Of a DNA stretch of 64,000 nucleotides, positions 1 to 47,875 are shown piece by piece; positions within the stretch are counted from its first letter, which is position 1; each line of letters opens with the position of its first letter. Under the pieces are notes generated by a model. It had not been told where the DNA came from. It saw nothing but the letters and a program-made list of their open reading frames with translations, and made no database searches. The DNA is from Aurantiochytrium sp. KH105 (Eukaryota; Sar; Bigyra; Thraustochytrida; Thraustochytriidae), in NCBI GenBank assembly GCA_003116975.1, contig BGKB01000141.1, positions 62,001 through 126,000 of the forward strand, given 5' to 3'. The translations under genes and the position numbers were made by a program.

Positions 1-3000
1 ATACAGACGTGGATGCGTATGAAGTTCTATCGCATGGCATATAGCCAGATCCGGAATGCGACGATTGCCATTCAGGCGGCCTCTCGAGGTCGCAAGGGCA
101 GAGCCGAGGCGCATGTGTTGCGTGTAGAGCGCGCTCGACTTCGGTTGCAGAGTTGGGCGCGAGGGGTCAAGTATCTGCGCCTACTCCGTAGGGAGCGTCG
201 GGCCGCGATCACACTACAGTGCGCTGTGCGCGGTCGTCAAGCGCGCGACGCAGTTCGCGCCGCGCGTCGAGGCGCAAAGGATCTCGGAAACGTTCTCAAG
301 GAGCGCGACGCTCTCCGAGCGCAAGTGCAAGCCTTGAAACAGCAACTGGCTGTAGGAGGACGTGACAGTGAAACTCCTGCCAGTGACGCAACGACTGGGG
401 ATATACGGGGCGTGGTGGAAGGACAATCTCCCGAACGCCAGGCTCGCGCTGTTGCCGTTCTTGCCGCGGCGTCGGTAACCGTGCGAATGTGGTTCTACAT
501 GAAAGATGTGATGAAGACGGTCGAACGTAAGCGTCTCGACTTGGCTCAGCAAGCAGCAGCTCAGCAGCCTATTGTCGACACAAGCGCGTCCGCCCCTTCT
601 CTGCCATTGCAAAGCGCGCCTTCGGCTCTTGCTGACGGCTCTCCACGCAAGTCGAGCGAGGCTCTAGGTTTGGAGACATCACCACCACCACAACAACAAC
701 ATCTTCTTATCGGTCTCGGTCCTGGCAGTGTGTCTGACGCTGACTGGTATGCTCGTACCTTTGGCGAAGAGTTAGAGGAGCTCGGCCGTGCGAACCAGGG
801 CGTTGTTGCTGCAGACGACGTGGGTGATGGCGCGGGAGGCGCAGGAGCGAAAGATGCCGCGAGCAATGCAAAGGATGCCGCTGACATCGCGGACGGCACG
901 ACTTCAAGCGATGAGTTGCGTCGCATCGAAGAGGAGCTGAAACAGAAACGATTGTCGATCGAAGCGAAACGAGCGAAACTGGAAAGCGAAGCGCCGTCGC
1001 ACGCAACAGCAACCGAGACCGAAACAGGCGGCAGCGAATCTCCTGACGCAAAGCTCGGCGACTTTGAAGAGCGTCTCGCGGAGCTTGTCGAAACCTTGCA
1101 CACGAAGGAGAACGAGGTGATTGAGGTGAAAAACTTTTTGGCCCAGCAGACAAGCTTAAAGAACAAGGCCGAAATCAGGCAAAGTGAGCTGGAGCTCGAG
1201 CTGAACGCCACCAAAGAAGGTCGAGTCAAGCTCGAGGCTGATCTTGCCGCCGCGGCCAAGACACGGGAAGATCTCGAGGCCCGCGTGGCTGAGCTCGAGC
1301 GAGAGCGCGACGCCAATCGGGAGGTAGCGCGATCCGCTGCGGTTATTGACCTGGAAACAGAACTTCGAAGTGCGCACCAAGATGCGGATGGCCTTCGCGA
1401 AGAGCTGGCCCAAGCCAAGCAAGAAACAGAGCGTCTTATCCGGGAGGGAGAACTCAAGGCCATGTCTCTCGATGACTATCGCTCCTCGTCGGCGGCGAAA
1501 ATGAAGCTTTTGGAAACCCAGCTCAGTGAAGTGAAGAGAAGCAAGGCCAAGACGACGAGCATGCTTCAAGCTCGCATTCTCATCGACAGAAGGTCGCGGC
1601 GTACTGCGCAGCACGTCATTAGCGTTTGGGCTGCGGCGGTGCGTGAGTCCAAGTCGCTCCGCATGCGCGCCGCATTTGCGCAGCGCCTTCTCGAGCGACG
1701 CCGGTTGCAGCGCGCGTTCGACAAGCTCGCGGCCGCTGGATCACAGGAACGATTTGAAGAGGCAGTGGTGAGCAAGGCACTCGCGCGACGGGAACATCGA
1801 CTACTTTACAAAAGTTTCCAAGGATGGGCCGACGAGACGCGTCGCGGAGTGCATGCCGAGCGCGTGGACGCCGCGCTGGCAGGTCGGGACGCGCAGCTTT
1901 TATGCATGCGCGTTTTCCGTGCTTGGCACACGTGGGCAACGTTGCGGCTGGAAGAAGAGGTGCAGTTCAATCGCTTGACAGAGGTTTTCCATGGGCATCG
2001 GCTGAGGCGACACTTTGTGGCGTGGCGCGAAGCGCACGTGCACGAGCGGCGCTTGGCCAAGCTTGAAGACCTTTACAAGCGCCACATGAAAGAGCTCAAG
2101 CTTCGGAATATTTTACACGCGTGGAGTCGCGCCACCCGGGCTGCGACAGCGTACCGTCCAGAAATGTCGCGTATGGTGACTGCTCGAGAGGCGGAAGATG
2201 GCTCGCCTATGCGCAAGGAGCGAGGCGATGCCGACCTGCTACGTCTCATGGGTCGTTTAGTCAAGGACGACGAGACGTTTTCGCGACTCACACCGGTCCT
2301 TGCGCGTGCAGCAGACCGTATGCAGTATCGAAGCTCAAGTGGCGAGGACTTGCTCGATGACGATGTGCTCGGCGGATACCTGCCTCGGTCACCGCAGATC
2401 GAGCAACTGCAGTCTGACGATGAGGACGAGGATGATTATGATGACGATGATAATGAGTCGGAGGACGCCATGGCGTCTGACAGCTTTCATAGCAAGTCGC
2501 GTGCGCGGGGGCGACGAGGCTCGTACAAGTCTCGGCGTTCGAGCCAAAGAAAGCTGAATGGGACCTCGGACGTATTTCGCACCACTGAGTACGTGGAAGA
2601 AGCCGGGCGGTCTCGCCGTGATAGCGCGGGCATGATGGATCGCAAGACGCAGTCAATGCGCGGACCCAGGCTCGTGAGAGAGGGCGAGGACAGTAGACCG
2701 TTCGCCCCTGGAAATGACGGAAAGAATGTTCTTGAGGGTGATGATGCATCGAGTCCGTCGCGTCGAAGTGCAGACATCGACGGTGAGAATTCTGTTCATT
2801 TGTTCCGTTCGTCGAGCTCGCCCTTGCTGATTGGGGATGAGCACGCCGGTGAGGGCAAGGGCAAGGAGATGGCCTCGGCGCTGACGCTGGACATGGTGGG
2901 CGTGCGTCGCGTCAAGGAAGATGGCACACTTGAATTTGACGATGGAGCATCACCTGTTGCAAGCATTGACACTGTGATGCAAACTGCGCGACAACTCAAC

Positions 3001-4329
3001 ATGCCGCCGCTCATACTTGCAGCTCTACACGGAAATCTTGACGTTGTAGAGCGCCTCTTGAAGGAAGGCACGGACCCGAACGTAGATTACAGCGGAAAAC
3101 ATCGCACGGCACTGCACGCGGCCATTCAGTCGTTCAAATGGAGCGAAAGTGGAGTCGAGCGCATGGTCGATCTGCTGTTGGAGCACGGTGCCAACGTGCA
3201 CGCAAAGAATAGCCATGGGAACACCCCGTTGATGGAAGCCGTTCTCAAGGGCGACGAAGCACTTTCCCTGACAAAGGCACTGATTCGGCACGGTGCAATT
3301 CGAGGAACAAATGCGAAGGATGGCGATAGCACCGAGGGTGCGAACGAGTTCGGGCAGACTCCTCTGCATGCGGCCGTGCGGCTGGGCGCGACAAAGACAA
3401 TGTACGAGCTTCTCAACAACGGGGCAAATTTGACGCGGGGCGATAGCCAAGGTCAGACGGCGCTTCATCACGCGGCACGCATTTGCAACGTTAGCATGAT
3501 TCATAATTTACTTGGCTACAGCGAGACGCGTGCCGGAGAGCTGCAAATCGAGGCGAACAAGGAGCGGACCGCAAATGGGGTGAATGGAGTAGATCGCCAT
3601 GGCGAAGCCAAGGGCGGCAAGGGACTTCGTAATTTGACCGACAATAATGGAAACACGGCGTTGCATCTGGTGTGCTCGAGCACGTCTTCTTCTGAAATGT
3701 GGAAGGCCATCTTTGTGCTCTTAGAGAACGAATTTGACCCGAACCTAAAGAATCGCGCGGGGCAGACTCCGTTGTGCATTCTTTGCTCGAATAAGAGTTC
3801 GAGCAAGAAGGCGCTGAAAATGTTCAAGCGTCCCAATGTGCGTTTTCACGAGCAAGACCGCTTGGGCAACACTGCGCTGCACATTGCGTGCCACCTGGAC
3901 AGCCGCGAAATTGCGTGTCGCCTTGTCAGGATGGGTGCCCCACTCTTTATTCCGAACGATCATAAAGAGACGCCAATGGACCTCGTTCCCCAAGGCTTTG
4001 CTGTGCAACTCTTGCGTGCAATCAAGTACCCACCCGAGGAAGAGCTGATGCGAAAATTTCATCGCGACATCAAAAAGTGCATGACGTGCCGCAACACCTT
4101 TAGCTTCTTCCGTGACCAGCATCACTGCAGACACTGCGGTCGCGTGTGCTGCACCAAGTGCACGTCTCACAAGTACCCAATTGCCAAGTTCAACGCAGAG
4201 TCAAGTGTAACGGTGTGTGACCATTGCTGGTCGGTCTTGACCATGCCAATGTCGCCCGTCGATGCGGAGATGGACGCAGCCCTAGCCGACGAAGGTGAAG
4301 AGCTTCCGAGCACCGCTCTCGTGGGTTGA
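1..4329 (+). CDS. Myosin-like heavy chain tail with IQ, Sfi1-type, ankyrin and FYVE modules (5' partial)
   Basis: The frame is open from base 1 (first ATG at 13), so the gene continues upstream of the window; 1438 codons follow the ATG. Residues 1-75 hold IQ-like calmodulin-binding motifs (for example AIQAASRGRKGRA), as in a myosin neck. Residues 85-115 and 300-520 are charged coiled coil. Residues 525-710 hold six repeats spaced exactly 33 residues apart, each ending in a W/L position (W539, L572, W605, W638, W671, W704), matching the Sfi1 centrin-binding pattern. An acidic and Ser/Arg-rich linker follows. Ankyrin repeats occupy about 997-1335 and a FYVE zinc finger about 1347-1410, with the core DQHHCRHCGRVCC. 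FYVE fingers bind PI3P on endosomes. Myosins with ankyrin/FYVE tails are known in stramenopiles. The motor domain is not in the window, so 'myosin' rests on the IQ series and architecture. Confidence 0.72.
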   Translation: MQTWMRMKFYRMAYSQIRNATIAIQAASRGRKGRAEAHVLRVERARLRLQSWARGVKYLRLLRRERRAAITLQCAVRGRQARDAVRAARRGAKDLGNVLKERDALRAQVQALKQQLAVGGRDSETPASDATTGDIRGVVEGQSPERQARAVAVLAAASVTVRMWFYMKDVMKTVERKRLDLAQQAAAQQPIVDTSASAPSLPLQSAPSALADGSPRKSSEALGLETSPPPQQQHLLIGLGPGSVSDADWYARTFGEELEELGRANQGVVAADDVGDGAGGAGAKDAASNAKDAADIADGTTSSDELRRIEEELKQKRLSIEAKRAKLESEAPSHATATETETGGSESPDAKLGDFEERLAELVETLHTKENEVIEVKNFLAQQTSLKNKAEIRQSELELELNATKEGRVKLEADLAAAAKTREDLEARVAELERERDANREVARSAAVIDLETELRSAHQDADGLREELAQAKQETERLIREGELKAMSLDDYRSSSAAKMKLLETQLSEVKRSKAKTTSMLQARILIDRRSRRTAQHVISVWAAAVRESKSLRMRAAFAQRLLERRRLQRAFDKLAAAGSQERFEEAVVSKALARREHRLLYKSFQGWADETRRGVHAERVDAALAGRDAQLLCMRVFRAWHTWATLRLEEEVQFNRLTEVFHGHRLRRHFVAWREAHVHERRLAKLEDLYKRHMKELKLRNILHAWSRATRAATAYRPEMSRMVTAREAEDGSPMRKERGDADLLRLMGRLVKDDETFSRLTPVLARAADRMQYRSSSGEDLLDDDVLGGYLPRSPQIEQLQSDDEDEDDYDDDDNESEDAMASDSFHSKSRARGRRGSYKSRRSSQRKLNGTSDVFRTTEYVEEAGRSRRDSAGMMDRKTQSMRGPRLVREGEDSRPFAPGNDGKNVLEGDDASSPSRRSADIDGENSVHLFRSSSSPLLIGDEHAGEGKGKEMASALTLDMVGVRRVKEDGTLEFDDGASPVASIDTVMQTARQLNMPPLILAALHGNLDVVERLLKEGTDPNVDYSGKHRTALHAAIQSFKWSESGVERMVDLLLEHGANVHAKNSHGNTPLMEAVLKGDEALSLTKALIRHGAIRGTNAKDGDSTEGANEFGQTPLHAAVRLGATKTMYELLNNGANLTRGDSQGQTALHHAARICNVSMIHNLLGYSETRAGELQIEANKERTANGVNGVDRHGEAKGGKGLRNLTDNNGNTALHLVCSSTSSSEMWKAIFVLLENEFDPNLKNRAGQTPLCILCSNKSSSKKALKMFKRPNVRFHEQDRLGNTALHIACHLDSREIACRLVRMGAPLFIPNDHKETPMDLVPQGFAVQLLRAIKYPPEEELMRKFHRDIKKCMTCRNTFSFFRDQHHCRHCGRVCCTKCTSHKYPIAKFNAESSVTVCDHCWSVLTMPMSPVDAEMDAALADEGEELPSTALVG

Positions 4330-4445: not shown

Positions 4446-5837
4446 TCAGAGGTGAGCGTCTTGGTTTTCACAGCCCTTGCAGCGGCAGTCTTGCGTGCAA
4501 CGGCGGTTGGCTGCGAAGCACTCGCAATACATTTTTAGACAGCGGGATTGCTTGCATTTGCAAATTCCCGACTTGCGCTCTTGCTTTGGGACGAAGGCGT
4601 GCGCATCAAGTGCAAGTCTTTTGTCCATTTCCTCTTTGCGTTTGTCCGCGTGTTCTGCATCGTTTTGGCATCCAATGCAAGTGCAGATCCCAGGCGTGCA
4701 CATGGCGCCTTTGGCAAAGCAAATGCAATACATCTTCAGACAATGCGTATTTTTGCAGTGACAGACGCCTCTGCGTCGCTTCTGGGTCGTGGCGGATCCC
4801 TTGCCCTCGCGTTTGGACCTTTTCATCCTTGGCTTTGGGCTACGGGATTTGGTCACTGAGGTTGACGGTGGCGGTGGCGGTGGTGGCAGCGCAAAGTCGC
4901 TTTCGTCATCGTCACAGTCGACTGATTCGCTCAAGTCGGCCTCATCAAAATCTTCATCATCGTCGTCGTCGCACTCGTCGTCTTCGTCGTATTTGATGTT
5001 ATCGTCGTTGACGTCACCGACGGCGACCTGTCTGCCGATCGCAGCTCCGCCTGGGGAATCGCGACCATTTGCCAAAGCCTGTGGATTCGCAAGGGGAATG
5101 CCAATGCGAGTTGGCCTTTTGCGAGCTTGCGACCCTTGATCCTTGCCTTTGTTGCTCTCCGAAGGCTGTCCTTCCAAATTCGTCTGCGGCACTCGACGGT
5201 GGTAAAAAGCCTTGCAGGGTTGTTTCTGCTCGCGCAGCGACAAGAGTCGAACGCTGACCCGACGCGGAGGTGTTGAGAACAAGTCATACCGAGCCGCGTC
5301 TTTGTCGTCGTCGCCGTGGTTGTTGTCGCCATCTGTGGCCACAATGTGATCCAGTGGCTCTGACAAGTGTGACACTGTTGAGGACACGCTTGCGATCGGC
5401 GACCCTGGTAATGCTGGGAGGGCAAGCGTTTGCGGGGAGTCCAATGGAAAGAGCGGCAAATCGTGGACAGAGGCTGGCGACGAGTCGGATGCGGGTAGTT
5501 TCTTGTCCAAGACGTCTTCAAGATTACGCAGTGCGTCTGATTTTGGCGAAGAAGGTCGATGGGGCGTCGAGAACGACTTGGTCCCAACCAAGTGGTCAAT
5601 GTAGAGATTTGCAATGTGTTCCTGCATGACCTGGCAGGAAAGGTTGTACTCGTCGACAGAGTCTGCATCCAAAAAGATGTCGAGCTCGAGACGTACAGCT
5701 TCGGCTCGGCTAAGAGCTCCCGGTTCACCACCTTCCGATAGACTTTTCACGAAGCGCTCCTGATTCCGTTTGCGCTGAATAATGAGTTTGGCGTCCACAG
5801 GCACGGAGGGGTCCTGCAAGGACTTCCAGAGCGCCAT
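4446..5837 (-). CDS. CRC (tesmin/TSO1/LIN54-type) DNA-binding protein
   Basis: 463 residues from the ATG at 5837 (MALWKSLQDP). The frame stays open upstream to about 6374, but that stretch reads like leader sequence. The last ~105 residues form a CRC domain: two cysteine-rich CXC motifs, VCHCKNTHCLKMYCICF and ICKCKQSRCLKMYCECF, joined by a linker ending AHAFVPK. Both keep the CLKMYC tyrosine that in LIN54 inserts into the minor groove of the CHR element. The rest is acidic and low complexity (runs of D/E and proline) with a basic stretch before the CRC. Family members are subunits of DREAM/MuvB-like cell-cycle repressors or plant TSO1/TCX regulators. It is divergent from SLD5; the shared promoter carries three TTTGAA/TTCAAA words. 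It ends 116 bp from the convergent myosin-like gene. Confidence 0.85.
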   Translation of the reverse strand: MALWKSLQDPSVPVDAKLIIQRKRNQERFVKSLSEGGEPGALSRAEAVRLELDIFLDADSVDEYNLSCQVMQEHIANLYIDHLVGTKSFSTPHRPSSPKSDALRNLEDVLDKKLPASDSSPASVHDLPLFPLDSPQTLALPALPGSPIASVSSTVSHLSEPLDHIVATDGDNNHGDDDKDAARYDLFSTPPRRVSVRLLSLREQKQPCKAFYHRRVPQTNLEGQPSESNKGKDQGSQARKRPTRIGIPLANPQALANGRDSPGGAAIGRQVAVGDVNDDNIKYDEDDECDDDDDEDFDEADLSESVDCDDDESDFALPPPPPPPSTSVTKSRSPKPRMKRSKREGKGSATTQKRRRGVCHCKNTHCLKMYCICFAKGAMCTPGICTCIGCQNDAEHADKRKEEMDKRLALDAHAFVPKQERKSGICKCKQSRCLKMYCECFAANRRCTQDCRCKGCENQDAHL

Positions 5838-6550
5838 GTTCTTTCTTGATAGCCAGTGGTGCTGGTGGTGGCGGCGACGGCGGTGAAAACTCGTCGTTTG
5901 GACTTTGAGAATCTCAGCCTTGGCTGGACTCGCGGTTAAGTCTTGCGCGTGGAATTTGAAGTTCTGTCTTGTCTTCTCTGGTCCTCTTTGCTTGCTGGCT
6001 TGCTCGCTCGCTCGCTCGCGGAATTCAGACAATCGGTCTGCCCGGTTTGCGATGACTCCCGCCAAGGAAACGTCTTGGATCTTCGCCCCGCACACGAGCG
6101 AGCGCGATCTCTGACAGGCCGACCCAAGTGGACTCGCAGTTGCGTGTTTCAAATTTTGCGTTTGTTCGCAGTTCTCGCAGGATTCAAACGGCGACCTTGA
6201 CGCATTTTGCGCAACCCATTTTGGAGCGCGGTCTCGGCCCCGGAGAAAGGGAGGAGCAAAAAGCAAACCATCTTTCGCAGGCAGGACGAGCGCAGCGCGA
6301 GAGACGCAAGGCACGCGAGCCGCACGCGAGCCGCGCACGATCTGCACGTGGGGTGCGCGGTGCACGAGGGGCACGAGGCAGGAAAGGGCACGGCTACGTC
6401 GAACGGCGAAGCGGTGCGAGGGGTCGGCTTTGCCGCGTTTTTGAGCGTGGTGGTTGGGCGCCCAGCACGTCAGCCATCGCGACAGTTAGGTGATTCGCAA
6501 GGCAAGAAGAGCAGCACAGCACAGCACAGCGCAGCGCTGCGCAGCGCGCG
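5838..6550. promoter_or_regulatory. Divergent promoter between the CRC gene and SLD5
   Basis: This 713-bp region separates two start codons facing away from each other. It is pyrimidine-rich on the + strand near the CRC gene (GCTC repeats at about 6000-6020) and purine-rich near SLD5 (about 6240-6320), so both leaders are purine-rich on their sense strands. CHR-like words lie at 5955-5960 (TTTGAA), 6148-6153 and 6183-6188 (TTCAAA). I see no clear TATA box. Confidence 0.55.
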
Positions 6551-8374: not shown

Positions 8375-9905
8375 TCGCACCCGACCCGGGCGGCTCGTGG
8401 CGGACCCGGCGGCACCCCCGCTATTGCTGTCGCCTTCGCGCCACTTGCCCGCGCGGATAAGGCCCTTGGCGGCGCGGTATACTCGTGTTGCGGGCGGCGG
8501 TCGCTCCCGGCGGGCAGGTAAGAAGCGCGCGCGCCGCAGACACGGCGAGAGAGAGGCCAAAAAAGAAAAACCCAAAGAAAAAATAAAAGAAAGACTAGAA
8601 TCAATACGAGCGAAGCAGGGCGCGCGGCGAAGCCAAAAGGAGCGAGAGAGAGAGAGAGACTCCAAATCGATTCTCGCGCTCTCGCCAACGGGGCGCTCGC
8701 TCGCTGTCGGCGTGCTTGCGTGTCTCGCGAGTCTCGCGAGCTTGGCCGGCGCGCGCGGTTGCGGGCGGCCGCGCGCTCGCGTGCGCTCGCGCTCGGCCGG
8801 ACGGGCCCGGCCCCGCGGCGGCGCAGGCGCAGGCGCGCAGGAGCGGCGGCGGCGTTTTGAATCCTGGCTGGCGCCGCTCCGTTGATCCCATCGCGATTGC
8901 AAGCAGGGCGGCGAAACCCATCGCGCATCTCGCTCTCCCGGCGGCGGCGGCGGCGACCCTCCTCCGCTCGCGCGCGGGCGGGCGCGGCGGCGCAGGCCGG
9001 GCGCGCGCGGGCGTGCGCCTCGGCCCCGGCGCGCGCAGACAGGCGGGCAGAGCAAGGAAGGAAGGCCGGCGAAGCGGCCTCGCCGCCGGGACGCAGAGGA
9101 AGGAACGAGCGCGCCCGCAAGTGGAACAAAGGGCGCGCGCAAGTGGAGAAAGCAGCGGCCGTAAGTGGGACTTGGGGCGGGGCGGGCTGGTTCCATAGTG
9201 CGGCGGCAGGCCTCTCTCTCTCTCCTAGGAGGCGGGCGAGGCTAGCCAGACGAGGAGGCGCGGCAGAAGCGGGTGGTGGCGGCGCGGCGCGGCGGCGGCC
9301 TCGCGCGCGGCGGCACGGGTGAGTGGCGGCGCGGGCGCGCGCGCGCGGCNNNNNNNNNNNNNNNNNNNNNNNNNNNNNGGGGGGGGCCCCCGGAGAGCCC
9401 GCCCCGCCGCGACGGGCGCGCGGCGGGCGTGGAGATGGGCGGGCGGGCATGCAGGGGATGGATGGAATGGAGGTCGAGACCCGGCCAGCCAGCCAGCCAG
9501 CGAGACGAACCCGCGGGCCTCATCCTCGACGCGGCCACGGCGGGGGCCGGCGAAAGGCTCGAAACCGCGCGGGAAGATGGAAATGGAAAAATTGTATGAT
9601 CTTGAAAACTCATGTCGAAGAAATACCTCTCGCTCTCGTAACGAACGCAGCCAGGCAACGGCGAGACCCCGTCGAAGAACAAGGTGTCAAAGAAGAAGAG
9701 CAGCGGCGAGGCCCCGCTAGATAACAAGGTGTCAAAAACAAAACACGAAGTGCGGCGGCAAGACCCCGAAACGCTTCAACCAGAGACTAGCACTTGTACG
9801 CAGAGCCGCGCAAGGCGCGACCCACAGCAGGCCGCACTTGGCACCTCTTTCGAGGCGAACAAGCCGGGAGGTCCCGGCGCAAGTCCGCGCTGGAGCGCAG
9901 TTCAC
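8375..9905 (+). other. GC-rich leader/promoter of the CCT-domain gene, including an assembly gap
   Basis: Extremely CpG-rich sequence, purine-rich on + from about 8480. CGCAAGTG words occur at 9116 and 9138, with a CGTAAGTG variant at 9160. Donor-like GTAAGT (about 9161) and GTGAGT (about 9319) and an acceptor-like CGAACGCAG ending at 9650 suggest one or more 5' introns. From 9651 the downstream reading frame is open and lysine-rich, so coding sequence may begin upstream in an exon I cannot place because of the gap. Confidence 0.4.
9350..9378. other. Assembly gap (29 N)
   Basis: A run of undetermined bases lies in GC-rich sequence, with alternating GC before it and a G-run after it. Confidence 0.99.
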
Positions 9906-12900
9906 ATGTCCAGCTTGCTAGAGGTGGGCGACTTCAACGGCGCCTACAGCACAGGTCTTCGAGGTTCGCTCACCAATCTCGAAAATCTCTCGTCTGATGA
10001 AGAAGAAGAGGATAACATGGGTCCAGCCACGTCACCCCGTCTCTCCGCCGTGGACACGATTGAAATGATCCTCGCGCAGGGTGGCGTTCTCAACTTTGTT
10101 GAGGAGGGCGACGAGTCCATGCTTGATGTTCCCCTCGAGGCGAATGGGTCGGGAAATCTCAATCTCGACCAAGCAACCTCTTCTGCGGCGAGCGGGACCT
10201 CGTCGACGTCAAACGGGACTTCCGGCACGAACGCATCGTCAACCTCGACCGCTTTGAGTAGCGAGATCGCTTCGCGGGCGCGAGAAGCCGCACGGCAACG
10301 GGCATCTTCGTTGTGCTCTCTATCGAGCATCTCGTCGGCGTTCTCTGCCTTCCCTGTGCCCTTGCAACCGCTGGACCGGCGAAGATCCCGAGCTTCGGAC
10401 TTGCTACCCAAGACGAGTCCGATCAAGGCTAGACTGAGTGATTTTCGTGACGATCTGGCGGATGACAAGTCTCCCGAGATGTCGTTGCAGACCTCCCTCG
10501 CATTGCCACCACAGTCAGCGGACAGTGGTGACAATATTCTCACGACCAAGGCGCGAAGCGGATCAAGCAGCAGTTCCTGCTCGTTGTTGAGTCTCGACTC
10601 GATGAATGGCAGCCTGCTGAGTCTCGGAACGCCCACGCTTACCGGCTCACGTTTCTCAATGATCCCCAAGCCGCCGTCCGTCCTCTTGGATTTTCCGGAT
10701 GAAACAGTGGCCGATGTCGCAGCTTCCGTGCCTCGGGATCGCTCAAGTAGTATCTTCTCCTTTGCCTCAATTCGTTCGCGAGGCAGGTCTTTTGACTGGG
10801 TACAAGAGACGGACTTTGAGTGCTCGCCTCCATCGCCCTCGACGCGGACGCGCCCACGCGGTTACAGCCTCGAGTTCTCGATGCTACCCACATCCTTGAT
10901 TGAATTAACACAGCCGAATCAGCGCGTCGAGGACGACTGGGATATTCTCGAAGAGGAGGAGATCGAAAACCTTACGGATGGGAAACCTGCATCTTCCTCA
11001 TCTTCGTCGTCGTCGTCGTCCTCCTCCTCGCTGGCAAATGCTGCTGCGAACGGAAACCCGAAACGTGTCAAGCTACGCTTTTCCCAGCATAGTGGTGCGC
11101 TCGCGGAGCGTGAGACTGCCATTTATAAATCGCGCATGTCGTCGGCTGCCTTTTCTCGAGGCAAAAGACCACGATCCATCCCGACCATGACACAGCGAGT
11201 ACCTCCTCTGTACAAGACAGTGCCGGCCCGTGCCACGATGCCGACGCGGAACAAGCAGATGCTCGTGTATCTTCGCGTGGCCACGGATGCCTACCCTGAT
11301 GAGTCAGAGTCCTCGTCTGACTCGGAATCGGATTCGGAGGCGCTGATGACGACTTCAATTCCGCGTGTGACCTCGAAGCCAAAGGGCAAGGCGATAAAGG
11401 GTAGCAAGCTTAAGACCTCGAAGAGCAAGTCTGGCAAGTCCAAGACGAATGCCGTGGGTTCATTGGCTTCTACCTCGTCCAAGGCCTCGATGGCATCCGC
11501 TTCTTCATCATCTTCTGCTGCATCTTCCTTCAAAGCAAAGAGCAAGGTTAGCGATCCGTACGCGGCAGCTGCGGCTGCTGCCTCGAATGGAAGAAACGGC
11601 GCGGCGGCTACCTCAGCATCTCCTGCTCATGCTCTTAAATCTGCGGCAGCGCCCCCTGGTGCTGCAAATCCCTTGCGCAAGGCGTCGAGCGAATCCGTGG
11701 GGCACCCTATTCCCATTGTCAAGAAACAGCACCCCCAGCCGAAACAGCCTTCCCCACAACAACCTGCAATGGCCAAGCCTGCTGTAGCGGCACCTCCGTC
11801 GCATCGGCCAATGTGCTCTCCGCCAAGCTTTTCGCTCGCTGCGCGCATGGCGAACCGCAATGCTACGATCGGCTCGTTGACCATGGAACAGCGCCGTCGT
11901 CGAATCGAAAAGTTTCTTGAAAAGCGCAAGCGCCGCGTGTGGCTCAAGCGTGTCAAGTATGGATGTCGCAAGGCCTTGGCCGACTCCCGTCCACGTGTCA
12001 AGGGTCGCTTCGTCCCGCGCCATGTGCAGAATCAAGTGTTGGCGGATCAGAGTCCCAGGACTGCTGCGGCAAGTCCAATGCAGCAACAGATGCAATCACA
12101 GTCTGCTGTGGGAAGTGCTGCTGCGTCAATGATGAAAGGTGCTGGAAGCAAGGGTCTCAAGACAATGCCTGGTTCGATGCATGCAAAGCACGGCGGCGTC
12201 GGCCCGGCCTCGAGCATGGGTGCAGGTCGTCCGATGATGGGAGGCGTCAAGTCTGCTGGAGTTATGCGTCCTGGCGTCGGTGTTCAAGGCTCGGTACAAG
12301 GACATCGTGTTGGTGCCATGCACCACGGTGCTGGAGGCGTTGCGCCTCCAGCAGTGCGTTACCGTCACCCGGTTGCACCGCAGCAGAACTCGTCGCGAAT
12401 GTCTGTTCCTGCGCAGGCGCAGGCGCAAGCGCAGGCGGGCGGGCGCGTGCGTCAGTCGGTTCCTCAAGGCGTGTCGCACTTGCAGCAACAGCAGCAACAG
12501 CAGCAGCAATCGCAGCAGCGTTACAAATTGCAGCATCAGCAGTCTCAGAGTCAACAACACCAGCATCAGCGCTATGCCTCTGGAGCAAAATTAAGCTCTG
12601 CGCCCTACCAAACGGGTGGTGTTGCCCCCAAGGCTGTCCCTGCCGCCACGTCTTCGAAAATGTCACAGTTGCAGCATTCCTCTCTTCAACCACAACAGCA
12701 GCAACAACGCAGCACAGGACCGGGTGCAATGAACGGTGCTCGTCCTGGTTCCGCACCCATGGCTTCGCGCGTGGGCAGCGCGCCTGCAAGCACTACTAAA
12801 GCGTCTCCCTCCTTTGCAGTCGCGCGCAAGAGCGTGGGACCTGCCTCTGTGCAAAATGGCGCAAAAATGGCGGGAGCACCAAATGCTGCGTTTAACCGGA

Positions 12901-14153
12901 ATACAAACGGTGTTGCAAGGGCGACGCAGCCGGCCGCTCTTGGCGCACAAAATGGTGTCAAACCCGGAATGGCTTCTTCGACGCCGGCGGCAGCTGTGGC
13001 GACGAACAAGAGTGCAAGTGCCAAGCAAGAAGCAACTGCGCCGTCCGGCAATGGGACGACGGTGAACCCTCGTACGGGCAAGTTGAATGCTCCTTTACGT
13101 GCAGCCACGGGAATCATGTCGCGCGCTCCTCAAGCTTCGCAGAACCGCCCAGCGCCGTCGAGCAATGCGCGGTCGTCGACGCCCTCTGGCACGACTCCCT
13201 CTTCTCGGGGAGCCGTTCCGGGCTCAAATGGCAATGCCCGAAGCGCCGCAGGTCCCGTCAATGGCGCCGCAGGTGCTGGTGGCAACGGTGGTAATCGTAG
13301 CAATGGTGGCGGAGCTGGCGGCAACGGAGGTCCCACTCGCCCCACCTCTGGGCTCAGACCGGGATGCGTTGTGAACAACAATGGCGCCAGGACGTTCACA
13401 TCGCAAGACCGGGATGGAACCAGGTACATTACGACAGTAACACCGAGCGGAACGCGTACAACGACGATGATTTGCCCGAACGGTGAGCGACGCATTACAA
13501 CGACTGCGTCAAGTGGTGCGCGTACGATTACCAGCATTGATAAATATGGAAATCGTAAGACCGTCAAGATGATGCCAGCTCCCCGCGTGAGCAAGACTGG
13601 AGGCGCTCCGGGGTCTGCTACTAAGGTGACGACGACGCGCGTTCCTGCTGGAACTGCCACGACGCCTTCCAAGACTAGTTCGTCCGCATCGGTTACGGGC
13701 GGAGCGGGCTATGTTACACCCGTAAAGTCGGAGGTTCGTCGCGTGGTTGCTGCTTCAGCACCTCGGCCTGTAAAGCCCGGAGTCTCGGTCGGCGCACCAG
13801 GATCGGCACCTCCACGCCAGCGTTTGAATGCTCCTCTTGCTATGGCGCGCACTGTTACGAATGGACGGCCTGTGGCATCATCTAATGCACCTCCTCAGCA
13901 TACTTCTTCCTCAGCCGCAACTGCTGTTGTTGCTTCTTCTTCATCAACTTCTTCTTCTTCTTCGTCGTCATCATCAGTGGTTCCTCCTGCCCAAGTCCGT
14001 TCGAATGCACCGGCAACTTCCTCTGTACCTGCACCGGCTCCTCCAAATGGATCGCGAGTCCCTTCACAGTCTGTGGCTCGAAATGGTACTTTGGGCAATG
14101 GAAAGGCTACAGGTCCTTTGAGCACCTCGACATCTACTCCGAAGAAGAATTAA
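9906..14153 (+). CDS. Low-complexity CCT-domain protein, putative transcriptional regulator
   Basis: 1415 residues from the first in-frame ATG (MSSLLEVGDF); the frame is open back to about 9651, so a spliced upstream start is possible. At about residues 659-704 is a CCT motif (CONSTANS/CO-like/TOC1): EKRKRRVWLKRVKYGCRKAL followed by ADSRPRVKGRFVPR. It keeps the basic and Y/SRK/RPRxKGRF positions. In plants CCT domains mediate nuclear import, NF-Y assembly and DNA binding. The rest is Ser-rich (poly-S near 10990-11030 and 13930-13975), Q-rich (12484-12560) and A/P/G-rich. Residues 1161-1220 hold five 11-residue units of pattern xRxxTxxxxxG. There is no B-box or receiver domain. It is convergent with the TBC gene. 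Confidence 0.72.
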   Translation: MSSLLEVGDFNGAYSTGLRGSLTNLENLSSDEEEEDNMGPATSPRLSAVDTIEMILAQGGVLNFVEEGDESMLDVPLEANGSGNLNLDQATSSAASGTSSTSNGTSGTNASSTSTALSSEIASRAREAARQRASSLCSLSSISSAFSAFPVPLQPLDRRRSRASDLLPKTSPIKARLSDFRDDLADDKSPEMSLQTSLALPPQSADSGDNILTTKARSGSSSSSCSLLSLDSMNGSLLSLGTPTLTGSRFSMIPKPPSVLLDFPDETVADVAASVPRDRSSSIFSFASIRSRGRSFDWVQETDFECSPPSPSTRTRPRGYSLEFSMLPTSLIELTQPNQRVEDDWDILEEEEIENLTDGKPASSSSSSSSSSSSSLANAAANGNPKRVKLRFSQHSGALAERETAIYKSRMSSAAFSRGKRPRSIPTMTQRVPPLYKTVPARATMPTRNKQMLVYLRVATDAYPDESESSSDSESDSEALMTTSIPRVTSKPKGKAIKGSKLKTSKSKSGKSKTNAVGSLASTSSKASMASASSSSSAASSFKAKSKVSDPYAAAAAAASNGRNGAAATSASPAHALKSAAAPPGAANPLRKASSESVGHPIPIVKKQHPQPKQPSPQQPAMAKPAVAAPPSHRPMCSPPSFSLAARMANRNATIGSLTMEQRRRRIEKFLEKRKRRVWLKRVKYGCRKALADSRPRVKGRFVPRHVQNQVLADQSPRTAAASPMQQQMQSQSAVGSAAASMMKGAGSKGLKTMPGSMHAKHGGVGPASSMGAGRPMMGGVKSAGVMRPGVGVQGSVQGHRVGAMHHGAGGVAPPAVRYRHPVAPQQNSSRMSVPAQAQAQAQAGGRVRQSVPQGVSHLQQQQQQQQQSQQRYKLQHQQSQSQQHQHQRYASGAKLSSAPYQTGGVAPKAVPAATSSKMSQLQHSSLQPQQQQQRSTGPGAMNGARPGSAPMASRVGSAPASTTKASPSFAVARKSVGPASVQNGAKMAGAPNAAFNRNTNGVARATQPAALGAQNGVKPGMASSTPAAAVATNKSASAKQEATAPSGNGTTVNPRTGKLNAPLRAATGIMSRAPQASQNRPAPSSNARSSTPSGTTPSSRGAVPGSNGNARSAAGPVNGAAGAGGNGGNRSNGGGAGGNGGPTRPTSGLRPGCVVNNNGARTFTSQDRDGTRYITTVTPSGTRTTTMICPNGERRITTTASSGARTITSIDKYGNRKTVKMMPAPRVSKTGGAPGSATKVTTTRVPAGTATTPSKTSSSASVTGGAGYVTPVKSEVRRVVAASAPRPVKPGVSVGAPGSAPPRQRLNAPLAMARTVTNGRPVASSNAPPQHTSSSAATAVVASSSSTSSSSSSSSSVVPPAQVRSNAPATSSVPAPAPPNGSRVPSQSVARNGTLGNGKATGPLSTSTSTPKKN

Positions 14154-14552: not shown

Positions 14553-17420
14553 CTAGCGCTTGGCATACATGGAGTGCAAGGAGCTCAAAAGCTTGTCCTC
14601 GCGGTCCTTGTATTTCGCTAAGAGGGCGTCCACTTGTCCGAGCTGCGACGGATTCCAAACTGTGTAGAACTCGACGAGCTCGGCACGAAAGTCTCTGAAC
14701 AAGTGAGGCCGCGAGGGCGTGTCAGACGGGGGGTCACTATCAGCATCGGCTGCCGCATCGCGGTCGGCAATAGCTGCAGGGGTGTTTGTTTGGTTTGAAC
14801 TGGGCGTAGAAGGTCCTGGAAAAGGATTGGCCGACGACGATGGGCGAGCGGCTGGCCTTGATTGCGTGCGAGCGGCAACAAAGGCCTCGACGTCGCAAAT
14901 CATGCGCAAGATTCCATCTTCGGAAGCCACGGCTTCCGCAGATGCGGTGGGCTGGTCGAGAACGGAGCGCGATGAGCGCGGTGCCCAAAACCCGTGTAGA
15001 GAGGCCTCTTTGGCATTGAAAAGAGGTCTTACTGCATCGTAGCGTGCCTCGCGCGGTGCCTGTGCAGGGTCTCTGAGCGTGAAGCGACGCTGAAGACACT
15101 GCTCGCATGCGCAGGTGGTCTCCGGGGGCGCGACGTTATCGAAAGGGTGATGGTCGCATTTGACCTGGTAGCTTCGCCAGCTGCTATCATCACAGGGACA
15201 GGAGCGTAGAACGTGGTGACAATTGCCACACACGGGTACTGCATGTTTGAACTCTGGGAGGAGCTGTCTGCGTGTAAAAGTGCATGCAGAGCAGCACATA
15301 AAGTTGCATCTGCGACATTGTAGCTTGCGTACTCCAAGCAACATACTTTTGCAGTTGACGCAGTGCCAGGTGTTGGACCCAAGGGGAACGTCGAGAACCA
15401 CTTGACGTGGAGCTGGAAGCGTGGCGCATTGAGCACAGAGATCACCGTCCCAGGGGTTGCGCTTGTCGCTGGCACGAGGCACGGCCTCCTCCCAATCGGG
15501 CGTGATGCTGTCGATGATGGATGCCATGAAAGACACTTTGCCTTGCGGCGCAAGGCGGTGAAGCAGGCGACCGCAAGCAAGACAAACATCCCCTTGGAGC
15601 ACGCGTTCGAGAGCAGAAGGTGTCTGAGCGTTTGCATTGGCGGACTGTTTGGCGGAAGAAGAAGAAGAAGAAGACGACGACGACGACGAAGCAGATGATG
15701 GAGGGGCGGAAGCCATGGCCTCGCGCAAGGCCTCGACAATGTCCTGCGCGGTGACTCCCTCGTCAAAGTCATCCCATGAGGAAGGGAAGAGGCTGCGCAG
15801 TACAGGTGCCCGGGATCGAAGGCCGCGGTCCGCGCCTGCGCTGAGAAGTACACGAGCAGCCGTGGGATGGCCCATGAGTGCGCAAATGTGGAGTGGCGTG
15901 AGGCCTTCGAGGGCTGCGAGCGTGCTGCGGCAAGATGGGTCGCAGACCACGAGCAACCTGGTGATGACGGCCGCATGACCAAGCATTGTGGCGCGTAAGA
16001 GCATGCGTTCGAGAAGCTTAATGGGGAAGTGGTACTTTGCAATCTCCGTCTCTACAGCGGGTGCATCGCCAAGCTGTACGGCGCGAACGAGCTGAGTTGC
16101 ATCAAAATCGGCCGTTGTGAGCTCATTGGAGGCATCATGCATGGCACGATCAATATTTGCCAGGGTGGAGCGGCCCGGCGGTATGAGTTCTGAGGGCACG
16201 ATGCGCTGAACGACAATACAAATGGAGGCAAGGAGATCTCGTGCTGATATGGTACGCACGAGGACTTTGAATTGTTCTGCCATGTCTTCAAAAGACGTAA
16301 TGGCCATGAGGCGATCCCGAAGATGAAGCAGAATGGCTAGTCCAGCCACAAAGAGAGTCTCGTCGAGACGAGCGACAATAAAAAGATCCCAAATGAGGTA
16401 GACAGCGTCGACTCGCATGCTGTAGCTAAACATGGTGGTGAACCAGTCCATGGCAAAGAGGACAACGGGGTAGCCGCCTTGAAGCCCGTGCTCGAGGTGG
16501 CGGTGAAGGCGCGGCAGAAAGCGGCGCACCAGTAAGTCGAATTGATCGAGAAACTGCTGCAAAAATGAAGTCTGGCAGTCATAGATGCCTGCGAGGTTGT
16601 AGTCTTGCAGAAGAGATTGAAGCACCCAAAATGCCTTTTGTTCGGCGAGACGCCACGCAGCGGCCACACTGTGGTCGTCTGTTGTTGCTGCAGACGCTGT
16701 CGTATTATTGTTGTTGGAGAAAGTGGCCTTGTGACTCGAAGAGGAGCGGTCTCTGTTCGTGTGGGCGAGAGCCTCGTTTTGGCTGTCTGAATCATCTTTA
16801 TCTTCATGCTCGTGTTGTGCTTGCGAAGACCCGTCGTCACTGTCCGTAGTGCCTGATGATGGAGTGTCATCGGTGCGTTCGTGCATGAGAATGAGGAGTA
16901 GAGCAGCCATGTAGTTGAGTCCTTGATGATAGGATGATTCTTTGGAGCCCGAAGCTAAAGCGCATGCGCAGAGAACATTGTAGAGTGCCCGTTCATGATG
17001 TTGCCAATGTTGTTCGTCAGCAGCGGCAGCAGCATCTGCATTGGGGTTTGGCGTAAGGGACGTGGCCTCGTCTGATCGGCTCGATGCGGCAGCGGCGGCG
17101 CGATCAGCCCGAACGTGGGCATTTCGCAGAAAGAGAGGATATGTGCGTTTGATGTCTTTGCGAATTTGCAGTTCTACCTGAGTGAAATCAGTGGGATCGC
17201 GGGCTCCGAGGCGCTGCGTCACCTCGGCCAGGTATCCTTCGTAGACGTCGGGAAAGGCTTTAATTTTCTTTTCTGCACCGCAAGCTACCATCCATAATTG
17301 GCTACGAATATAAGTTGGGACGCCTTTGCCGTCGAGAATTTCGTCAAGGACGCGCTCGCGGCATGACGCGGGAGCTTTGTGCCAGCACCGCACGAGGTCA
17401 CGCCAGTGCGTTTCGTACAT
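14553..17420 (-). CDS. TBC-domain RabGAP with ankyrin repeats and FYVE-like zinc finger
   Basis: 955 residues; the ATG at 17420 is the first in frame. Residues 33-400 form a TBC (Tre-2/Bub2/Cdc16) domain. The arginine finger is in IRKDIKRTYP (I86xxD89xxR92) and the glutamine finger in YHQG (Q166), so the dual-finger GAP mechanism looks intact. An acidic/Ser-rich insert of about 70 residues (181-250) interrupts the domain. Ankyrin repeats follow at about 470-535, a poly-Ser run at about 576-589, a CxxC pair at 613-616, and a FYVE/RING-like finger at 685-740 (WHCVNCK, LQCRRCNFMCCSAC, VCGNC). A further Cys/His cluster lies at 742-775. The finger lacks the classic RRHHCR core, so PI3P binding is uncertain. 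Predicted role: GTPase-activating protein for a Rab on a membrane compartment. It is divergent from the cation-channel gene. Confidence 0.85.
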   Translation of the reverse strand: MYETHWRDLVRCWHKAPASCRERVLDEILDGKGVPTYIRSQLWMVACGAEKKIKAFPDVYEGYLAEVTQRLGARDPTDFTQVELQIRKDIKRTYPLFLRNAHVRADRAAAAASSRSDEATSLTPNPNADAAAAADEQHWQHHERALYNVLCACALASGSKESSYHQGLNYMAALLLILMHERTDDTPSSGTTDSDDGSSQAQHEHEDKDDSDSQNEALAHTNRDRSSSSHKATFSNNNNTTASAATTDDHSVAAAWRLAEQKAFWVLQSLLQDYNLAGIYDCQTSFLQQFLDQFDLLVRRFLPRLHRHLEHGLQGGYPVVLFAMDWFTTMFSYSMRVDAVYLIWDLFIVARLDETLFVAGLAILLHLRDRLMAITSFEDMAEQFKVLVRTISARDLLASICIVVQRIVPSELIPPGRSTLANIDRAMHDASNELTTADFDATQLVRAVQLGDAPAVETEIAKYHFPIKLLERMLLRATMLGHAAVITRLLVVCDPSCRSTLAALEGLTPLHICALMGHPTAARVLLSAGADRGLRSRAPVLRSLFPSSWDDFDEGVTAQDIVEALREAMASAPPSSASSSSSSSSSSSSAKQSANANAQTPSALERVLQGDVCLACGRLLHRLAPQGKVSFMASIIDSITPDWEEAVPRASDKRNPWDGDLCAQCATLPAPRQVVLDVPLGSNTWHCVNCKSMLLGVRKLQCRRCNFMCCSACTFTRRQLLPEFKHAVPVCGNCHHVLRSCPCDDSSWRSYQVKCDHHPFDNVAPPETTCACEQCLQRRFTLRDPAQAPREARYDAVRPLFNAKEASLHGFWAPRSSRSVLDQPTASAEAVASEDGILRMICDVEAFVAARTQSRPAARPSSSANPFPGPSTPSSNQTNTPAAIADRDAAADADSDPPSDTPSRPHLFRDFRAELVEFYTVWNPSQLGQVDALLAKYKDREDKLLSSLHSMYAKR

Positions 17421-37712: not shown

Positions 37713-40700
37713 TTACATTCGGAAGGCTCGCTGGAAAAGATCCGGCTGGACCCAGTTGTACGCGCTGCGATTCAGATACTTGGCAGCAAGACTTGCCTGC
37801 ACATGAGCAAGCGCTTCGGCATCCTGCGCATTGAGCTGTTTTGGCGGATCTACCTTGCTATGACCCGAGCTATAATGCTTCTTGAGCTGCTCGAGCGCAT
37901 GGGGGGCGTTCACCAGCGACTCGAGGTAGCGCAGTTGCGTGTACAGGGTTGATGGACGGTATTCGGGCACCAGCTGCAATCGACGGCCGTGCAAGGTGAA
38001 AGAACGCCCCACGACAGACTGCTGGCGCGTGCGCAGGTCCGCCGAAGGGTCGTCGGCCAAGAGCCATCCTTCATAGTACTTTTTCACCGCACGTCGTGCC
38101 GCCAAGTGAAGCTGGTTCGTCAGGTATGTCAAGTCCACAGGCTCGTCGCAGCGCGGGCACTGAAGACCTGACTTCGCTGCGTTACTCTGCTGCTGCTTCT
38201 CGGGCACGATCTTGGCAAGCTCCTGTGGAAGAGCAACAACGCCCAGAAAAGGGTGTTCCAGATCGCAACTTTCGCACGTCAGCGTGACACGGTCACACGC
38301 CTTAAACCTGTCAATGTCTGGCATATCCACAATGTTTAGCAAGTCCTCGTCGCCATGCGCGTCACCGTGTTGCGCACCGCCCTGAACCGAAGAGGGATCC
38401 AGACCGAGATGCTCGGCAATCTGGCCTGGCGAAAGTCCTTCAATCGGCTCGCACAGACGCCGCGTCGGTGGCACGACCTGCTGCTTCAAATACCAATCCA
38501 CATCAAGTTCCAGAAGCTTCCACGGATCGTTTGTGACCTCCTCCGGATGAAACGCACGTTGCGCATAAGAGGCATTCGACGGAGGCGGTGTACGCGGCAT
38601 CGGTTCCTCATTCTCCGGATCGTCCGCCTTTCCGCCACTCGTTTGGCCGTCTTCTGTCTTAAGGGCCTGCTTCTCCTTGAGTTCGCGCGCTTTGCTTTCA
38701 TAGTCCTGGCGGGTCATTGTGCAAATGACGTACGGGATGTGATCGCCCACACTCACGGGTTTGTTCCTCGCGATCATGGCGAGCGCCACCTGCAGGTGCG
38801 GTTGGCTCTTAACATCAGGATAATCGCGAGGATTCTTGTTCAATCCCTTGGTGATGACAAACTTTTCAAGAGCCACAGAACGCGCCTTGATTTGCTCGTG
38901 CACGTCATCGAGACATTTGAGAATGCCTTCAACCACCTCATCGTAAGGTTTGCCCGAGAGAACATGGTCCAATACGCCATGACCAATGTCCTTGGACAGC
39001 TGGCACCAGTCACGACGCACGAGATCGAGACCCTTGGTCTCCTTTTCTTCCACAATCTGCTTTTCCCCATTCGGTCCCTTGACCTCCTTGATGGCCAGCG
39101 CTGCGTACTTTTTCTTCTTCAACAACAGCATTGTCTTGAATACGCCGTCCTGCTCGATCTCGAGCAGGTTGTACAGCTTGTTAATCTCTGCCTTGACGCG
39201 CTGCCCGATTCGGTTCACCTCTGCGAGATTCGTCGTACCCGTGTTGATCATGATCGAATCCGTGTCACCATACACGACATCGAGGCCCAGCTTGTCCTGC
39301 GCAATATTCACGGTATTTTGCAGAATCGAGCGGCCCTGCGACGTCACCAGCGCTGCGACGGGCCGCGCAAAGAATCGAAAGCCCTTAAAGCCGAGACATC
39401 CATACATTGAGTTGGCAGTCAACTTGAGTGCCTTTTGCCGAACGTCAAGCTGCTTGCGCTTGCTCGGATCGCGCTCCGACTTGAGCGCCTGCTTCACCAG
39501 ACGACGCCGGTCAACCAGCGTCTTGATGAGCGATGGCAGAATTGCAAGGTCCGGAAACTTGGCGCGGTCGGGCAGGCCCGGAATTGCGTCCGGGTCCTCG
39601 GCGTCCACGTCCACGTCCGCAGCCCCACCTTCTTCCATATCCATGTCGTCGTCGCCGGCGCCAGTCTCCACTGCAGCAGCCGCGACCTCCAAATCTTCGA
39701 GGCCACCACTGCGCACCCGCTCCACGGTGGTGTAGCAAATGTTATACTCTTGAATGATCGAAGGGTACAGCGAGTTGAAGTCCAGCAGCAAAATGAACTT
39801 GTCGTACAAGCCCGTCTTGGGGTCCAAGACGAGACCACCATCGTACTTGGGCTTGCGCATCGCTGAACGCGAGACCGCGCCGCCCTTTTTGTTGTTTCCA
39901 TTCGAGGATCCCTTCTTGGCTCCGCTCTTGCCGTCTCCACTGTCAGCGTACACCTTGTCGGGCAATACATAGCCCTGTCGCGAAAATTCGTGCAAGAGCA
40001 GGTGTTCGATGCGCTCGGCGCGACCGCCCGACAACGTCCGCGACCACAGATTGCCACCAAGGTTGCTCAGCTGTAGCGTCAGCGGGACAGCCTCGAGCTT
40101 GAACATGAGAGAGAGCGCTAGCCAAGCATCCTTCTCGTTGCGTTGTACAAGCTTCAGCAGCCAATCCTTGTCCTGGTAGTACTGTGGGACTTGCAGTGGT
40201 GTCACCTCGTGCCGCTCTACATTGAGCTGCGTGCGGCACAGCTCTTGCAGCGTGTAGCTACGCTGCCCGAGCAAGAGTTCGCGAGCGGTTGTGTACGTAT
40301 CGAGCATCAAGCGTCCAGGCGTCAAGTTGGCGCTCGAATAAAAACCGCCCCCTGCACGACGCCCCGGCATGCGCGACATCTTGAGCCGGCCCATCTTGGA
40401 CCACATGAGTCCTACATTCAGCTTGGACATGCGCGACAGCAGGACATCCATTTCAAAGTTGCGAATGTTGTGGCCAATGATCATGTCCGGGTCGTGTCGG
40501 TGCATTTGAACCATAAGAAAGCTCAGCAGAGCTCGCTCGCTCGCCTGCACAGAAATCTGCTTGCGAGACTTGGCCGCGTCCTTGAACCCAGCAGGGAAAC
40601 CCGCGCCGCCATTCTCGCCTCGCACAATCGTGAACGCGCTGGCAAGACGCGGGTCCCCGTGCGCGGCTGTCTCGCTCACCACGTCGACGTTATCGCGAAG

Positions 40701-42716: not shown

Positions 42717-43219
42717 CGCTCGTTGCTGCTGCTCGCTGCTCGCTGCTGCCGCTCTGTCTTGCCCGCCGCCAAGCGCGCTCGCGTGCTGCGCCAACTCGCG
42801 CAGGCTCCGCCGCCAAGCGCAAGCGTGCTTGCTTGTTCTTGATCTGCTCGTCTCTCGCTCGTCTTTTGCAACCTAACCACCGTCTCTCGCCTAACCACCG
42901 CACTGCACATCAAGCAGCAGCTTAACCGTCACCGGCGCCTTGTTGAGACATGGCCTCTGCGGAGAGATTGGGTCTACGTGCGCACGTCGGAGGGGGAGGG
43001 AGGCGTAGAACAAATGCACACAGACACGATGCGTGCTCGCCCGAGCGCTGCTGCTGCTGCGCGCCGGCCGGTCGCTTGTTTGTGGGCCCATGTTTGCCCA
43101 TGTTTGGCTGCTGCTTCTTATTTATTATCACACACCATGGTCTTTCAGTCCCCGTGAGGACCTCTGGCTGGTGTGTTTGTCATGTATGCCGCGGAAATGT
43201 GCGAGACTTCGAGCTCCTC

Positions 43220-47600: not shown

Positions 47601-47875
47601 GTCTGGAAGACAGAGCTCCGCGATATCCTCTCTCTGGTGACTCTTGATGACCGGCGAAGGGTTTTCTGGATACACATAGCTGAGCGTGTTTCCCTTGAGC
47701 TCGTCAAATTCGGCGACTTTGCTCCATTGTGCAGGTCAAGCCGCCCGTTAGTCTTTCAGAATGTTCATCGTGCACGCACGCATTTGCGCATGTACACGCC
47801 TGCACGCAGAGAGCTGAGTCTGGCTTTCTTTTGCGACAACTTACTGGCCACGGAATGGATGAGGCGCTTCGGCAT
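44613..47875 (-). CDS. DENN-domain protein with two C-terminal WW domains (two exons)
   Basis: Exon 1 47875-47845 (31 nt, MPKRLIHSVA plus one base) and exon 2 47716-44613 give 1044 residues. The exon 2 frame has no ATG before its upstream stop, yet AEFDELKGNTLSYVYPENP is clearly domain sequence, so a 5' exon is needed. The intron (47717-47844) starts GTAAGT, has a CTAAC branch site and ends AAAG. uDENN spans about 10-110 (LYGFAYFRNRES, LVISTSPYF). The cDENN/dDENN core lies at about 290-460 (VLVCGPESQAG, PYATLANVDPLTKHSSYVCG). It most resembles the DENND6/AVL9/AFI1 group of Rab exchange factors. Long charged linkers follow, then WW domains near 853-881 and 1006-1035 (W...YLWN...W; W...FWHN...W), which bind proline-rich partners. 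Confidence 0.8.

Follow-up and report, generated by a model that had tools for sequence, protein, structure and literature searches.

A Myosin of Aurantiochytrium with a Putative Centrin-Binding, Sfi1-Type Repeat Array between Its Motor and an Ankyrin-FYVE Tail

Introduction

The locus described here raises the question of whether a myosin can carry, within its own tail, the kind of repeats through which Sfi1 proteins bind centrin. In the excerpted text of two studies the Sfi1 repeat is given the consensus Ax7LLx3F/Lx2WK/R (PMC5112337, PMC9406199) and a period of 33 residues (PMC5112337), with the Trp anchor as the signature of centrin (PMC9406199). The stretch of DNA that was analysed, hereafter the window, comprises 64,000 nucleotides of contig BGKB01000141.1 (positions 62,001 to 126,000, forward strand) of Aurantiochytrium sp. 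KH105, and a first-pass annotation made from its letters had proposed an array of such repeats near its left end, in a probable myosin. Here, we report that the array probably constitutes an Sfi1-type, putative centrin-binding rod between the motor and the cargo domain of an unconventional myosin, as judged from sequence.

Results

The gene, its motor and its two copies

The window opens inside the gene, and the features to which the text refers are the following, in nucleotides of the window.

1..4329, + strand: C-terminal part of the myosin, an open reading frame with its start codon upstream of the window
1..246, + strand: IQ-type light-chain sites of the neck from pattern scans, with IQ-like motifs starting at nt 1, 70, 145 and 214 and one more upstream of the window
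868..1557 (limits approximate), + strand: coiled-coil-like helical region before the array, by Pfam FPP, acidic composition and few aromatics
1579..1653, + strand: repeat 1, anchor W539 (nt 1627), I at -3, A at -7
1678..1752, + strand: repeat 2, anchor L572 (nt 1726) with L in place of W, F at -3, L at -7
1777..1851, + strand: repeat 3, anchor W605 (nt 1825), A-x7-LL-x3-F-x2-W, complete triad
1876..1950, + strand: repeat 4, anchor W638 (nt 1924), F at -3, C at -7, L at -8
1975..2049, + strand: repeat 5, anchor W671 (nt 2023), complete triad, R at +1
2074..2148, + strand: repeat 6, anchor W704 (nt 2122), complete triad, L at -3
2173..2982 (limits approximate), + strand: low-complexity linker with acidic and Ser/Arg-rich stretches, from the translation by eye
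3001..4033 (limits approximate), + strand: ankyrin repeats, seven Pfam Ank stretches, E 3.2e-35
4063..4239, + strand: FYVE zinc finger with an atypical basic patch, DQHHCR, Pfam FYVE E 2.5e-14, 53.6 bits

The gene had been called a probable myosin, to be confirmed by extension upstream, and a complete myosin motor is confirmed there: Pfam Myosin_head scores 711 bits in the window's own copy (C141:59364-61535) and 708 bits in the second haplotype copy (L004, residues 129-872), and the P-loop GESGAGKT, switch I NDNSSRFGK and switch II DIFGFE that mark a myosin were all found. The frame at nt 1-4329 (1442 codons) continues for 1041 codons upstream of the window, where the first in-frame ATG lies about 3 kb away at L003:2983, and from this start the protein extends over 2448 residues in a single frame without an internal stop. 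The ATG at nt 13, from which the first-pass annotation had counted, is not the true start and corresponds to residue 1011 of 2448; the anchors are nevertheless numbered from this Met throughout. Within the 76 Mb, 367-contig assembly that was searched, one further copy of the gene was found (C44, 97% identity over a 750-residue query), and this second copy has a full open reading frame of 2450 aa at L004:349-7701 on the - strand. On both contigs the myosin has a CBS-domain gene at a distance of about 46 kb, and the two copies therefore look like haplotypes.

The order of domains is motor, IQ neck, coiled coil, six 33-residue repeats, acidic linker, ankyrin repeats and FYVE, and the array does lie between coiled coil and ankyrin-FYVE tail as first described. 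About five IQ-like sites were counted in the neck by pattern scan; Pfam IQ reports three stretches in the second copy, below the cut-off (E 0.016). Pfam FPP, a long coiled-coil family, covers nt 868-1344 and is likewise below the cut-off (E 1.6e-4).

The genome holds 83 Myosin_head places, which by eye amount to some 36 genes, each in two haplotype copies. The part examined of the closest paralogue of the motor (L009, 46% identity) comprises IQ and coiled-coil sequence, and inspection by eye of the ORFs reported for the next 4 kb downstream revealed neither ankyrin nor FYVE. Class XXIX myosin is a stramenopile marker; a CBS-domain search for it placed no CBS domain in any myosin frame, the frames being compared by eye.

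As for the neighbourhood, a gene transcribed divergently from the second myosin copy (L004:8206-9933, + strand) encodes a PH and ankyrin protein, so that a common promoter region may serve two proteins that each combine ankyrin repeats with a membrane-type domain. Within the window, a gene with two CXC (tesmin/TSO1-like) stretches (4446-6374, - strand) stands tail-to-tail with the myosin at about 115 bases, and further along are a CCT-motif protein (9684-14153, + strand), a RabGAP-TBC with ankyrin (14553-17420, - strand), a family B DNA polymerase with a Pol-alpha zinc finger (37713-42794, - strand) and an Avl9/DENN-like protein with a WW domain (44613-47675, - strand).

Six anchors in one register

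The six anchors, five Trp and one Leu, were claimed to be spaced exactly 33 residues apart, and their codons, each 99 nt from the next, bear this out; a tandem period of about 33 residues, as expected of Sfi1 repeats, thus runs through all six. Five of the six Trp in residues 506-724 share one class modulo 33, and five Trp in one register were reached by none of 20,000 residue shuffles of this 219-residue segment. Scored against the Sfi1 consensus the register reaches 19, a value attained by 0 of 20,000 shuffles (maximum 15, mean 9.1), and in a scan of periods 18-44 the highest score fell at 33 (19) and the next at 19 (17). The repeats were compared as ungapped cores; MAFFT on whole 33-mers broke the register with gaps. 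The autocorrelation of hydrophobicity in the array had no peak at lag 33, the top lags being 37, 53 and 17.

A helical segment next to a coiled coil could also be read as an ordinary coiled coil or single helix, serving as a spacer or dimerisation rod, in which the spacing of Trp arose by chance. The array does adjoin the coiled coil directly, is matched by no curated profile, and is predicted to be mostly helix in an AlphaFold2 single-sequence model of low confidence (pLDDT 48.5). Against this stand the register, which exceeds all 20,000 shuffles, and a basic, aromatic-rich composition that is unlike that of the preceding coiled coil (net charge +22 in the array, -11 in the coiled coil). The low hydrophobic power of the array at 3.5 residues (0.67), with peaks at 3.31 and 3.65, near 33/10 and 33/9, points the same way but discriminates poorly, because the preceding coiled coil is also weak at 3.5 residues (0.38; peak 2.7 at 3.44). 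Considering also that selection on the two segments differs, as described below, we find a chance spacing in an ordinary helix unlikely.

Fit to the Sfi1 consensus

Position 17 of the consensus holds Trp in five of the six repeats (Leu in repeat 2) and position 14 (-3) one of F/L/W/V/I in all six (4 F, 1 L, 1 I), whereas position 10 (-7), which calls for Leu or a large hydrophobic residue, holds L in four, A in repeat 1 and C in repeat 4. The motif LL/LR..F..W that had been claimed before each anchor is overstated: F at -3 and L at -7 occur in four repeats each, and the full W-F/L-L triad in only three (605, 671 and 704). Ala occupies position 1 in two of the six, and K/R follows the anchor in one, as compared with 16 of 39 Trp in an Sfi1-like protein of the same genome.

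Curated profiles were silent. Pfam Sfi1 (PF08457) did not match the array at E<=10, nor did any other Pfam family, IQ included, match the array segment at that threshold. Across the genome Pfam Sfi1 yielded nothing above cut-off, its best match having 13.5 bits and E 0.83; L005 and L006, candidates on such a weak match only (13.5 bits, E 0.83), were rejected. Sequence searches of the PDB found no Sfi1 chain. The silence of Pfam Sfi1 on the array says little and was not treated as defining, because the model also misses the giant Sfi1-like protein of this genome. A profile search had been proposed as a check, a score as ordinary coiled coil counting against the array; the array went unscored, which is not the refuting outcome that had been meant.

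This giant protein (L039/L040) is found at C38:457957-461190 and C160:63809-67042 and has an open frame of 3513 aa (3521 in the other haplotype). A piece of 1078 residues, on which Pfam Sfi1 found no match, holds 40 Trp in Arg-rich sequence. The -3/-7 triad accompanies 14 of 39 Trp where 2.3 are expected (0/2000 shuffles reach this), and six pairs of Trp lie 33 apart where 1.4 are expected (5/2000), the excess being weaker for pairs 31-35 apart (88/2000). On this pattern the protein is taken as Sfi1-like. In a genome search with the array it was the only other protein below 1e-3. Each haplotype gave a match of about 77 residues, one with E 4.9e-5 and 27% identity, the other with E 4.7e-4 and 25%; the weakest match of that search was L041 (E 0.21). 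Searching in the opposite direction, with the Sfi1-like protein as query, recovered nothing but its own two copies, the myosin being absent.

A matrix that drew on every one of the 39 usable Trp sites in the giant protein, without selection among them, was slid along the myosin as six windows 33 residues apart. The best place in the whole myosin was anchor 539, with a score of 49.9, far from the 300 segment shuffles (maximum -10.7, mean -46.8, s.d. 8.9). Among the motor-matching frames of 28 other myosin loci (30 loci less the two of this gene) the best score was 3.2, for L033 and L034, and the next -56.8; these loci extend only about 500 residues beyond the motor, and arrays may lie farther along their tails. 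An earlier matrix from 21 chosen Trp sites had settled on the same register (score 41.0), with 33 the best of periods 20-45. With the Trp column removed the array still ranked first in the myosin (21.2), the shuffles staying at or below -1.3 and L033/L034 reaching 15.8; with the -3 and -7 columns removed as well, the separation was lost (array -2.3, shuffle maximum 4.0, L034 14.3). The evidence hence consists of the triad and its register, set on an Arg-rich helical background that is common to IQ necks. A 26-column HMMER profile found weak repeats only (-14.5 bits for the whole protein, some shuffles scoring higher) and was too weak to decide. A scan of viral contigs for relatives gave three pattern matches, none confirmed as a homologue, and the array is known from one species.

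L033 and L034 are, it appears, the two haplotype copies of a myosin with several IQ motifs, whose tail, judged by eye, has an RCC1-type repeat look-alike. That this myosin takes second place under that matrix lends some weight to a rival reading, in which the array prolongs the neck and is bound not by centrin but by some other EF-hand protein, either calmodulin or a myosin light chain. Amphipathic, Arg-rich helices are common to IQ and Sfi1 sites, and places with EF-hands are many in this genome (148 matches). The array has no IQ motif by Pfam or by pattern, and its spacing of 33 departs from the 23-25 of IQ necks. Its anchors are, moreover, Trp, the signature of centrin in the excerpted text of PMC9406199, and we regard an extension of the neck as rather improbable.

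Centrin itself is at hand, since L042 (C79) is a canonical centrin gene, with 276 bits to caltractin, 264 to centrin-2 and about 155 or less to calmodulins. One and the same genome thus encodes the myosin, a large Sfi1-like protein and a centrin. Of the remaining candidates L043 is EF-hand-like by eye, and no centrin-like frame was found in L044 and L045 under a longest-frame rule.

Selection on the array

Differences between the haplotypes, a single pair and not a comparison of species, allowed dN/dS to be estimated along the gene. With 14 synonymous against 3 non-synonymous changes (dN/dS 0.065), the array is under strong purifying selection, as is the motor region (50:12, dN/dS 0.070). In the coiled coil and linker before the array the ratio was 14:19 (dN/dS 0.428), which differs from that of the array (Fisher p 0.008), and the array therefore appears to be retained for its sequence, unlike the neighbouring coiled coil. 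Values elsewhere were 0.315 in the neck, 0.115 in the linker after the array, 0.026 in the ankyrin repeats and 0.050 from FYVE to the end.

These values also bear on whether the array is a degenerate Sfi1 array that has lost centrin binding, as the presence of a complete triad in only half of the repeats might suggest. A dN/dS near that of the motor argues against decay, as do the six anchors, all of them identical between the haplotypes, and we consider such a loss very unlikely.

The ankyrin-FYVE tail

The ankyrin repeats and the FYVE finger were recovered by Pfam in the second copy as well (Ank_2 E 5.1e-33, FYVE E 4.9e-14). Of 38 FYVE places in the genome two fall in a myosin frame, and these are the two copies of this gene (contig and frame were compared by eye, and genes split by introns are possible). 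The finger reads FHRD...DQHHCRHCGRVCC. Classical PI3P-binding FYVE domains have WxxD, R(R/K)HHCR and RVC, with two basic residues before HHCR. In the KH105 finger RVC is present, FHRD replaces WxxD and DQHHCR replaces RRHHCR, which leaves the PI3P-binding signature incomplete. With D-Q for the basic pair and F for W, PI3P binding is not to be assumed, and the link to endosomes that had been drawn from this domain is weaker than claimed, although the domain itself passes Pfam.

Discussion

Consensus, register, the same-genome matrix and selection together support the assignment of the six repeats to the Sfi1 type. The centrin-binding pattern announced by the first-pass annotation is upheld to this extent, with the reservations that Pfam Sfi1 is silent and the triad partial. 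Centrin binding, its stoichiometry, the rod, its response to calcium, dimerisation, cargo, PI3P binding and the location in the cell are inferred, and the following model is conditional in each of these steps. The motor and IQ neck would act on actin, and the coiled coil may dimerise. The six repeats would make up a single long helix, which at 0.15 nm for each of its 198 residues would measure about 30 nm if unbroken; up to six centrins could wrap around it, one per repeat. A rod thus covered would be stiff and calcium-responsive, stiffening or docking with calcium, and would bridge the lever of IQ sites and coiled coil and the cargo module, in which ankyrin repeats and FYVE would hold cargo. 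Centrins on the rod could also touch centrins on the giant Sfi1-like protein, whereby the motor would be tethered to centrin fibres.

The remaining architecture has a published counterpart. Class XXXIV myosins of Phytophthora and Hyaloperonospora are described, in the excerpted text, as having one IQ, a short coiled coil, five ankyrin repeats and a C-terminal FYVE (Odronitz and Kollmar 2007, PMC2375034), the only paper found in a literature search on the class name. The KH105 myosin has the same order of named domains and the tail of that class (coiled coil, ankyrin repeats, C-terminal FYVE), a likeness of domain order and not of motor phylogeny, and differs in having about five IQ-like sites instead of one and the Sfi1-like array in addition. 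Neither Sfi1 nor centrin is mentioned in the main text of PMC2375034 or PMC5583752, and the word Sfi1 is likewise absent from PMC3942036. Trypanosoma brucei myosin I resembles the KH105 tail in that its text names a FYVE domain 30 times (PMC2924389), but it is of class I, and ankyrin or Sfi1 repeats are not named in the text available from that source.

Yeast Sfi1, TgSFI1 and the Tetrahymena Sfr family have, like the KH105 array, Trp-anchored repeats of about 33 residues with a reversed 1-4-8 triad on a helix (excerpts of PMC9406199, PMC5112337). The KH105 array is distinct in comprising only six repeats and in being set in a motor protein with ankyrin and FYVE. The closest functional precedent is found in Toxoplasma, where MyoJ and centrin 2 are needed together in basal constriction, on the grounds of co-localisation and a shared phenotype (PMC5477499); an Sfi1 array is not mentioned in the excerpted text of that paper. 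No myosin with Sfi1 or centrin-binding repeats was described in the titles and abstract openings that the literature search listed, PMC12661445 included. The earlier statement that no myosin with this array is described agrees with that search, except that the architecture around the array is known from class XXXIV. Our results are consistent with a combination of motor and Sfi1-like array that is not found described in the literature searched, on a tail whose architecture, without the repeats, has already been published.

Since even an Sfi1-like protein of large size can escape Pfam Sfi1, arrays of this kind may have gone unnoticed in other myosin tails already published, those of class XXXIV among them. 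A bolder proposal, which we put forward as speculative and rather doubtful, is that the ankyrin-FYVE myosins of protists as a whole class (XXXIV and relatives) carry an unrecognised Sfi1 array and are built into centrin fibres, where calcium acting on centrin would alter how stiff an actin motor is or how it docks. It is customary to view actomyosin and centrin-Sfi1 as two separate contractile systems, and a motor with built-in centrin sites would link both in one chain. Such a motor would allow a straightforward test of motor regulation or positioning by centrin and, if the reading holds, would be a direct molecular bridge between ATP-driven actomyosin and the calcium-driven contractile system of centrin and Sfi1.
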